Assembly: GCA_002721465.1 (NCBI GenBank)
Contig: PBKO01000020.1
Span: 1-36,044 of the forward strand
Source: Gammaproteobacteria bacterium
GTDB lineage: Bacteria; Pseudomonadota; Gammaproteobacteria; Magnimaribacterales; D2472
Direction of reading: 5' to 3'
DNA length: 36,044 nucleotides
This document shows positions 19,835-36,044 of this stretch, piece after piece. Within the stretch, counting starts at the first letter, position 1. Every line of letters begins with the position of its first letter. Both the position numbers and the translations under genes were made by a program. Under the pieces are notes generated by a model. That model saw only the letters and a program-made list of their open reading frames with translations, was not told the origin of the DNA and did not search any database.

Positions 19835-19896
19835 ACCTATTTTTACCTATTAAAAAACTCTAATTTTTACACTCTAAAATTCTTAAAATGTGGCGT

Positions 19897-19926
19897 ATTC
19901 TAAGCTTCTTGAAGCATTAATGTCAA
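19897..19926 (-). promoter_or_regulatory. sigma70-type promoter of the S10-spc-alpha array
   Basis: On the minus strand TTGACA (19921-19926, full consensus) and TAGAAT (19897-19902, 5 of 6) are 18 bp apart, followed by the GC-containing ACGCCACA. The spacer holds a short inverted repeat, GCTTC-AA-GAAGC. The promoter lies in the 122-bp interval between fusA and rpsJ, where most gammaproteobacteria have tufA. It shares the decamer AATACGCCAC with the tRNA-Thr/tuf promoter. Confidence 0.8.
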
Positions 19927-19956
19927 CTTTATATTGTAGTTTTACAGATATTGTTT

Positions 19957-22924: not shown

Positions 22925-22947
22925 ATTTTTTTTAGTTATAGGCCGCG

Positions 22948-22976
22948 ATTTTATATAGCTCGTTAGTAATGGTCAA
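22948..22976 (-). promoter_or_regulatory. sigma70-type promoter of rpsL-rpsG-fusA
   Basis: On the minus strand TTGACC (22971-22976, 5 of 6) and TAAAAT (22948-22953, 5 of 6) are separated by 17 bp and followed by the GC-rich CGCGGCC. The -35 box begins two bases after the rpoC stop codon, so the whole promoter fits the 54-bp rpoC-rpsL gap. There is no terminator between rpoC and this promoter, so some readthrough is likely. Confidence 0.78.
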
Positions 22977-34547: not shown

Positions 34548-35738
34548 TTACTCTACTATTTTTGATACTACGCCGGCACCAACAGTTCTTCCACCTTCTC
34601 TAATAGCGAATTTCAAACCTTCATCCATTGCTATAGGTGCAATTAAAGATACAACCATTTTGATATTATCTCCTGGCATGACCATCTCAGTTCCTTCTGG
34701 AAGCTCACATGCCCCAGTAACATCAGTTGTTCTGAAGTAAAACTGAGGTCTATAATTGTTCATAAAGGGTGTATGCCTTCCACCCTCATCTTTACTTAAA
34801 ACGTATATTTCAGCTTCGAATTTAGTATGTGGAGATATCGATTTAGGTTTTGCTAAAACTTGACCTCTCTCAACTGCTTCTCTTTCAACACCTCTCAAAA
34901 GAATACCGCAGTTTTCACCAGCTCGACCCTCATCAAGTGATTTTCTAAACATTTCAACACCTGTACAAGTTGTATCTGTTGTTTCTTTAATACCAACTAT
35001 TTCAAGCGCATCTCCAGTATTTACGATACCAGTTTCAATTCTTCCTGTTACTACTGTTCCTCTTCCAGAAATTGTAAATACATCTTCAATTGGCATTAAG
35101 AATGCTCCATCTACAGGTCTTTCTGGTTCTGGAACATATGAATCAAGTGTTTCTATAAGTTTCTGAACTGATGGGACACCTATATCTGAAGTATCACCTT
35201 CTAGGGCTTTCAAAGCGCTTCCAACAATTATTGGAGTATCATCACCTGGAAATTCATATTCGTTTAGTAGCTCTCTAATTTCCATTTCAACAAGCTCAAT
35301 CATTTCTGGATCGTCATTCTGATCTGCTTTATTCATATATACAACAATATATGGAACCCCAACCTGTCTAGCCAAAAGGATATGCTCTCTTGTTTGAGGC
35401 ATTGGGCCATCAGCTGCACTTACAACGAGAATAGCTCCATCCATTTGTGCTGCACCTGTGATCATATTTTTTACATAATCAGCGTGACCTGGGCAGTCAA
35501 CATGAGCATAATGTCGAGCAGTTGAAACATACTCAACATGAGAAGTTGCAATGGTAATACCTCTTTCTCTTTCTTCTGGGGCATTATCGATGTTAGCAAA
35601 ATCAACTGCATCACCACCAAATACTTCAGCAGCAACTTTAGTTAAAGCAGCTGTAAGTGTTGTTTTACCATGGTCTACGTGACCAACTGTACCAACATTT
35701 ATATGTGGTAAGGTTCTTTCGAATTTTTCTCTAGCCAT
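34548..35738 (-). CDS. tuf: elongation factor Tu
   Basis: This 396-residue EF-Tu delivers aminoacyl-tRNA to the ribosome. G1 GHVDHGKT is at 19-26, G3 DCPGH at 81-85 and G4 NKAD at 136-139 (NKCD in E. coli). Switch I reads [12 protein letters not shown], with Ala64 where E. coli has Asn. Domains II and III are complete, ending [23 protein letters not shown] precedes the ATG. It is the only tuf in the window; the fusA-rpsJ position is empty. Confidence 0.98.
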
Positions 35739-35766: not shown

Positions 35767-35841
35767 TGGAGCTCATAACCGGACTTGAACCGGTGACCTC
35801 TTACTTACCAAGCAAGTGCTCTACCGCTGAGCTATATGAGC
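35767..35841 (-). tRNA. trnT: tRNA-Thr (GGT anticodon)
   Basis: A complete cloverleaf: acceptor GCTCATA/TATGAGC with discriminator T, D arm GCTC/GAGC, anticodon stem CTTGC/GTAAG with loop TTGGTAA (anticodon GGT), and T arm ACCGG-TTCAAGT-CCGGT. The 3' CCA is encoded. It lies 28 bases upstream of tuf, matching thrT-tufB of E. coli, so the two are probably co-transcribed from 35873-35901. Confidence 0.96.
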
Positions 35842-35872
35842 CCGTTCATCAGCATCCTATTTTTGGTGGCGT

Positions 35873-35901
35873 ATTATCACTCTAAAAGTCTTTAAACTCA
35901 A
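35873..35901 (-). promoter_or_regulatory. sigma70-type promoter of tRNA-Thr-tuf
   Basis: On the minus strand TTGAGT (35896-35901, 4 of 6) and GATAAT (35873-35878, 5 of 6) are 17 bp apart, followed by the GC-containing ACGCCACC. AT-rich sequence, including an A-tract, lies directly upstream as a possible UP element; the alpha C-terminal arginine needed to bind one is conserved in RpoA here. The predicted start is about 25 bases before tRNA-Thr. Confidence 0.75.
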
Positions 35902-35948
35902 CCTTTTTAAGAAGATATTTTCTGTGGTTAATATTTAATTATTTTAGA

Positions 35949-36032
35949 TGGTGGAGAGGGTAGGATTCGAACCTACGTAGCCGAAGCGGCAGATTTACAG
36001 TCTGCTGGTATTAACCACTCACCCACCTCTCC
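35949..36032 (-). tRNA. trnY: tRNA-Tyr (GTA anticodon)
   Basis: A complete class II tRNA with long variable arm: acceptor GGAGAGG/CTCTCC with A73, anticodon stem GCAGA/TCTGC with loop CTGTAAA (anticodon GTA), variable arm around CGCTTCGGC, and T arm AGG-TTCGAAT-CCT. The 3' CCA is encoded. Its promoter must lie beyond the window's right edge. No terminator hairpin is seen between it and tRNA-Thr. Confidence 0.96.
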
Positions 36033-36044
36033 ATTTAAAGGTAC

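Follow-up and report, generated by a model that had tools for sequence, protein, structure and literature searches.

Promoters that are repressed by ppGpp and DksA, or during the stringent response, are described as being marked by GC-rich discriminators (PMC9304144, PMC7822876, PMC3293720, PMC6639932), and having C as the second base of the discriminator is described as destabilising, for a discriminator of six bases; the Salmonella study among these sources also describes tRNA operons as higher in the ppGpp-making strain, contrary to the simple expectation (PMC3293720). In E. coli, the rrnB P1 promoter (region TATAATGCGCCACC) carries the GC-rich discriminator GCGCCACC right after its -10 box, the sequence upstream of rpsJ holds TATAATGCGCGG, and that upstream of thrU holds TAGAATGCGCGC and TAGAAT-GCGCGC, where we placed the boxes by eye. 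The thrU gene belongs to the operon thrU-tyrU-glyT-thrT-tufB, in which tRNA genes stand upstream of tuf, and a 1985 paper in the EMBO Journal reportedly links, in its title, DNA sequences of the tufB operon with stringent control. Stem-loops at the 5' end that protect an mRNA are known too, those of the ompA type. The E. coli S10 leader, which is controlled by L4, is described as long and highly structured (PMC10931766).

Here we consider one stretch of 36,044 nucleotides (the window) from a gammaproteobacterium of the SAR86 cluster, the end of whose RpoB is 76-88% identical to that of its four nearest named relatives, all of them SAR86 cluster bacteria. SAR86 is a genome-streamlined ocean lineage. 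The assembly from which the window comes amounts to 986 kb and is about 80% complete, and the DNA of the window has a GC content of about 34%. Along the minus strand the gene order is tRNA-Tyr, tRNA-Thr, tuf and tRNA-Trp, with rpoB, rpoC, rpsL, rpsG, fusA and rpsJ (S10) further down; window genes other than those matched by query proteins carry presumed names.

The original prediction drew attention to two decamers that the promoter regions of S10 and tuf share in swapped order. Both are there, twice each on the plus strand at exactly the positions in Table 1: GTGGCGTATT (word 1; AATACGCCAC when read on the minus strand) and CACTCTAAAA (word 2; TTTTAGAGTG on the minus strand). No further exact copy of either was found on either strand of the window, and the two gaps, of 122 bases at S10 and 107 bases at tuf, have no other 10-mer in common. 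The "tuf" gap actually lies between tRNA-Tyr and tRNA-Thr, so that transcription from its promoter meets tRNA-Thr before tuf. On the minus strand, word 1 does extend over the last bases of the -10 box and over the discriminator in each case. Word 2, by comparison, forms part of the promoter spacer at tuf, whereas at S10 it follows the predicted start, and this swapped order speaks against a single two-part site common to both promoters.

Table 1. Coordinates in the window of the genes, promoter elements and shared words considered here, with the basis of each assignment
Feature	Position	Strand	Basis
rpsJ (ribosomal protein S10), 104 aa	19520..19834	minus	matched in 26/34 genus genomes
Stem-loop predicted at the 5' end of the S10 mRNA (9 bp, five-base loop): ACATTTTAA GAATT TTAGAGTGT	19869..19891	minus	fold and conservation of pairing
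Word 2 (TTTTAGAGTG) at S10: loop end and 3' arm of the stem-loop	19870..19879	minus	3/87 family genomes: G000 (own), G009, G014
Word 1 (AATACGCCAC) at S10: last three -10 bases and discriminator ACGCCAC	19890..19899	minus	26/26 genus rpsJ loci
S10 -10 box TAGAAT	19897..19902	minus	TAGAAT in 25/26, TAAAAT in 1/26 genus loci
S10 -35 box TTGACA, spacer 18	19921..19926	minus	TTGACA-18-NNRAAT in 26/26 genus loci
rpsL promoter TTGACC-17-TAAAAT, GC-rich discriminator CGCGGCC	22941..22976	minus	a third such promoter, after S10 and tuf
tuf (EF-Tu)	34548..35738	minus	
tRNA-Thr(GGT), transcribed ahead of tuf from the tRNA-Thr/tuf promoter	35767..35841	minus	
Word 1 (AATACGCCAC) at tuf: last three -10 bases and start of discriminator ACGCCACC	35866..35875	minus	19/26 genus loci
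tRNA-Thr/tuf -10 box GATAAT	35873..35878	minus	promoter match and genus alignment
Word 2 (TTTTAGAGTG) at tuf: downstream half of the spacer and first -10 base	35878..35887	minus	exact in 15/26 genus loci, variants in 11/26
tRNA-Thr/tuf -35 box TTGAGT, spacer 17	35896..35901	minus	TTGAGT-17-GATAAT in 26/26 genus loci
A-rich, UP-element-like stretch adjoining the tuf -35 box upstream	35902..35921	minus	conserved AAAAAGG before the -35 box

How improbable are such matches? The original prediction held them unlikely to arise by chance. Among 20,000 shuffled gap pairs, at least one common 10-mer arose in 6.9% and at least two in 2.3%; these counts include overlapping 10-mers, so that two separate words are rarer than 2.3%. 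On their own the word matches are therefore weak evidence. The gap pair had, moreover, been chosen out of many possible gap pairs. It is thus conservation that has to decide.

A scan of the assembly for both words singles out the first. AATACGCCAC occurs exactly twice (its reversed control once), at the S10 and tuf promoters, whereas the five copies of TTTTAGAGTG are matched by five of its control. The original prediction would count as refuted by loss of the words in relatives whose boxes persist: word 2 fails this test at S10, where it is found in three of 87 family genomes, and word 1 withstands it in the genus. As a conserved site word 2 is rejected on these two counts: its copies match by chance in AT-rich DNA.

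Counted from the gene side, with no selection for the word, AATACGCCAC is present at all 26 rpsJ loci of the genus. At tuf it is present at 19 of the 26 loci, a count that leaves out two of 28 loci whose upstream region is cut off (L165, L170); the remaining seven read AATACGGCAC (discriminator ACGGCACC). Note that eight of the 34 genus genomes, and 20 of the 107 family genomes, yielded no S10 match. The variation at tuf falls on the fourth base of the discriminator (window 35865-35872), which is C in 19 and G in seven of the 26 genus loci and never A or T. On a tree of the tuf region this amounts to four changes from C to G, at least two of them forced by well-supported branches. Only G or C is found here despite the AT-rich background, a hint that it is the GC content which is preserved.

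Word 1 is also specific. Across the 34 genus genomes the pattern AATRCGCCAC has 71 matches, against 23 for the reversed pattern. S10 promoters account for 26 of these matches and tuf promoters for 20 (one of them, L206, on a contig fragment). A wider regulon for the exact word can be set aside, as the remaining 25 all fall within ORFs. In the window's own assembly we inspected all 20 sites of AATNCGCC: the only ones placed as part of a promoter are the two at S10 and tuf, while 17 fall within ORFs and one extends across the start of an ORF. The looser pattern TTGA-N21-23-AATRCG showed no excess in two genomes (26 matches, 26 for the reversed control); its six matches outside ORFs are S10 twice, tuf twice, the window's own tRNA-Tyr and one site in genome G007 (L268, position 1501). 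This last site has the makings of a near-consensus promoter (TTGACA, TATAAT, ACG), and downstream of it we recognised no ORF, tRNA or Rfam RNA. As for L206 (G003:C1:15500-16231), it is a second tuf fragment whose promoter is near-identical to that of L343 (G086), from another genus, and it is probably a contaminating contig in the G003 assembly.

Beyond the genus, nine further genera of the family contribute 61 S10 promoters, which read AATACGCCAC (30), AATACGCAAC (27), AATACTCCAC (2), AATACGCAGC (1) or AATACGGCAC (1), each of the 31 non-exact words being one or two changes off. The 16 tuf promoters in other genera, obtained from 19 of 51 family places (three of the 19 stretches do not exist), have the discriminator ACGCCACC in 14 cases, ACGCATCC in one and ACGGCACC in one. 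A core of ACGCNNC or ACGGCAC is present in 59 of the 61 S10 promoters and in all 16 tuf promoters, the two remaining S10 promoters reading ACTCCAC. Counting against the promoter reading set out below are these two loci, the ACGGCACC of seven genus tuf promoters, and the S10 discriminator of genera g5, g7 and g10, which is ACGCAAC or ACGCAGC in 28 of 28 loci and mostly less GC-rich. In g5, for example, 21 of 22 S10 loci have ACGCAAC, while the three tuf promoters that were read keep ACGCCACC. The discriminators at S10 and tuf change independently of each other, which is evidence against exchange between the two loci and in favour of a promoter element that is selected at each of them separately. 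Concerted change was considered and rejected as a general pattern: in one genome, G041, both promoters have ACGGCAC, but in seven genomes of the genus the change is confined to tuf.

The position, conservation and specificity of word 1 are matters of observation, as is the pairing in the S10 leader described below. Taking these together with the makeup of the promoters, we regard it as very probable that GTGGCGTATT comprises the last bases of the -10 box together with the GC-rich discriminator of promoters of the ppGpp/DksA type, and that CACTCTAAAA is shared by chance. The idea of a common regulatory site can accordingly be kept for GTGGCGTATT, present genus-wide at both promoters as a stringent-type discriminator, and given up for CACTCTAAAA, in view of its three occurrences at S10 in 87 family genomes. 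AATACGCCAC would then run from the 3' half of a sigma-70 -10 box into the GC-rich discriminator ACGCCAC(C), and would be the counterpart of GCGCCACC at rrnB P1. The same element would serve two promoters of the translation machinery, that of the S10 operon and that of tRNA-Thr/tuf, having been selected at each separately. A GC-rich discriminator with a C two bases past the -10 box would make for a short-lived open complex, so that both promoters would fire strongly during growth and be switched off together by ppGpp and DksA in starvation. A response to ppGpp/DksA is likely on the strength of the sequence, from which the transcription start and the length of the discriminator are likewise predicted.

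Several features of the promoters fit this reading. The full arrangement is TTGACA-18-TAGAAT-ACGCCACA at S10 and TTGAGT-17-GATAAT-ACGCCACC at tRNA-Thr/tuf, both on the minus strand, and -35 and -10 boxes with a spacer of 16-19 bases are found at all 26 S10 promoters (spacer 18) and all 26 tuf promoters (spacer 17) of the genus. The discriminators ACGCCACA and ACGCCACC stand in gaps of only 25-29% GC. Ranked by discriminator GC among 104 promoter-like sites in the window, rpsL comes top (7/8) and tuf second (6/8), whereas S10 (5/8) ties with six others for third, having the best boxes of those tied; the rpsL promoters of all four named SAR86 loci have similar GC-rich words after the -10 box. 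As to a possible UP element, AAAAAGG is kept ahead of the tuf -35 box in the genus alignment, with something similar in most of the 16 other loci, and none is evident at the S10 promoter. The C two bases after the -10 box, equivalent to the -7 base of rrnB P1, is found in 87 of 87 S10 promoters, 42 of 42 tuf promoters and 19 of 20 rRNA promoters. For rRNA we turned to 20 loci in relatives, because the window's own 16S rRNA was not found in its assembly; the -10 box is TAGAAT in 18 of them and TATCAT in two, ACG follows in 18, and TAGAATACG is present in 16.

The genes for the partners in such a response are present. A protein with a RelA_SpoT domain is encoded in 31, and one with a DksA zinc-finger domain in 30, of the 34 genus genomes, the window's own genome being among them in both cases. 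Four DksA proteins from other members of the genus retain DPVDRA or DPIDRA, which we take to be the tip motif of DksA. Of three beta-prime residues that presumably matter here, N680 and K681 are conserved; the third, R362, is replaced by K, which counts against the reading.

Set beside rrnB P1, the two promoters are alike in having a GC-rich discriminator right after the -10 box (ACGCCACC at tuf against GCGCCACC, with AATGCGCCAC at the place of word 1), in having C as its second base and in driving translation genes. They are unlike it in that the first discriminator base is A rather than G, and in the -35 box, which is complete at S10 and reads TTGAGT at tuf; as to ppGpp, the likeness is one of sequence. 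The tuf locus resembles the E. coli thrU-tufB operon in having tRNA genes upstream of tuf, and departs from it in that the SAR86 promoter stands between tRNA-Tyr and tRNA-Thr, that the tRNA-Gly which normally belongs to this tRNA cluster is missing there, and that tRNA-Tyr has a promoter-like sequence of its own. Another contig of the assembly, C14, terminates in a tRNA-Tyr gene with promoter-like TTGACT-17-AAAAAT (L257 1501-1625), and the window's contig stops just beyond tRNA-Tyr (35949-36044). Since both end at tRNA-Tyr, they are probably direct neighbours in the genome.

The S10 leader shares with its L4-controlled E. coli counterpart a GC-rich discriminator and a predicted early hairpin (z of -1.5 in E. 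coli), and differs from it in that only about 57 bases separate the predicted start from the ATG, with one clear stem-loop; it is not a long leader. The stem-loop starts where the discriminator ends, and many other lineages read ACATTTTGC-GATTT-GTAGGATGT there. Its pairs are kept in 95.8% of 144 cells from 16 distinct genus sequences, compared with 31-52% when the arms are slid against each other. Two stem pairs show double changes, in one sequence each, and the observed values were reached by 4 to 10 of 500 shuffles. Across all ten genera (68 distinct sequences), 475 of 612 cells pair, compared with 216-303 for slid arms; when the 3' arm was shuffled 2000 times, 475 was never reached. Folding 25 nt gives a mean z of -4.2 in the genus (-5.2 for the window's own sequence), -3.0 in g9 and values between -2.1 and -3.3 in g2, g3, g4, g6 and g8; in g5, g7 and g10 the stem-loop is weak or absent (-0.6, -0.9 and 0.3). 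The window's whole 61-nt leader has a z of only -1.07, no better than many shuffles. With its many G-U pairs the stem is better read as a hairpin in RNA than as a dyad in DNA. Besides the z of the whole leader, a point against it is the near-constant 5' arm, whose overlap with the promoter may be the reason. An Rfam search with the S10 leader found no match up to an E of 5.

Nine outgroup leaders, chosen by hand and with boxes set by eye, have z values from -5.8 to 0.65, and some of them fold near the start, as does the E. coli leader, with z values that are modest, so that an early hairpin may be general in S10 leaders. Like stem-loops of the ompA type, the one at S10 lies at the predicted 5' end and is conserved in its pairing; unlike them, its stem is AT-rich and weak. 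To give it a part in mRNA stability or autoregulation would be guesswork. More tentative still than the promoter reading, and in our view rather improbable though worth stating, is a double use of one stretch at S10 in six or seven of the ten SAR86 genera, where DNA acting as a ppGpp-sensitive discriminator and start would also encode a near-invariant RNA 5' arm (ACATTTTGC) that caps the mRNA.

Might GTGGCGTATT instead be the operator of a dedicated DNA-binding regulator common to both promoters? A 10-base word that is specific to two promoters in a 986-kb assembly is what one would look for in such a case. Yet the word lies wholly within the -10 box and discriminator and shows no evident dyad, and at the C/G position of tuf it is GC content that is kept and not the letter. 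The rRNA and rpsL promoters, moreover, carry looser GC-rich versions at the same place, as in E. coli, which fits a signal at the level of RNA polymerase. We therefore think an operator unlikely, and prefer the stringent-type discriminator.

Less likely again is that recombination or gene conversion between two former tuf neighbourhoods left both words behind, much as the original prediction had also proposed. Its premise is reasonable: an EF-Tu gene lies between fusA and S10 at 50 of 51 scorable loci outside SAR86 and at none of four SAR86 loci (25 more loci are unscorable), which makes a former tuf locus at the S10 gap plausible, and such a gene probably once stood there in the ancestry of SAR86. 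In SAR86 loci today the EF-Tu gene is missing from the fusA-S10 gap (window 19835-19956), and the one tuf found lies between tRNA-Thr and tRNA-Trp. In addition, the window's two gaps align over about 22 bases around word 2 with a score of 29, reached by only 3 of 1000 shuffles. But 86 of 577 pairings of out-of-clade S10 regions with tuf regions of other genomes, which are not independent, the genomes being related, score at least 29 as well, so that the shuffles understate chance. Gap pairs from the same genome reach this score in seven of 23 cases, the window's own and that of G009 included. Further points against exchange are promoter spacing (18 versus 17), boxes and flanks that differ between S10 and tuf, and the independent divergence of word 1 at the two promoters in other genera; word 2 at S10, for its part, is restricted to three of 87 genomes and suits a hairpin with compensated pairs. 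Comparing the gap alignments with the 577 cross-genome pairs, we found no homology beyond the promoter element that exceeds that of unrelated copies. Remnants of exchange are thus very improbable. A phage search with the S10 gap gave no match.

Least probable of all is that the match is chance in AT-rich DNA with no function at either word: shuffled gap pairs share at least one 10-mer in 6.9% of cases and chance sharing is what we accept for word 2, but for word 1 its preservation at 26 of 26 and 19 of 26 orthologous promoters, while the spacers vary, refutes it.

Word 1, then, is a known kind of element, ordinary promoter anatomy that is well conserved in SAR86; only the stem-loop at S10 may be new. 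A literature search found no paper on promoter discriminators in SAR86, and the papers returned for SAR86 and ppGpp name neither term in title or abstract. The findings suggest that SAR86, with a GC content of about 34% in the window, has preserved the classical GC-rich discriminator where translation genes are transcribed from, so that growth control of the stringent type has probably been retained. The 5' stem-loop at S10 is a small RNA element open to testing. If the double use of its sequence were true, control of initiation would be tied to mRNA stability or autoregulation, and the classical L4 leader would have been cut down to a minimal hairpin in a streamlined ocean bacterium.
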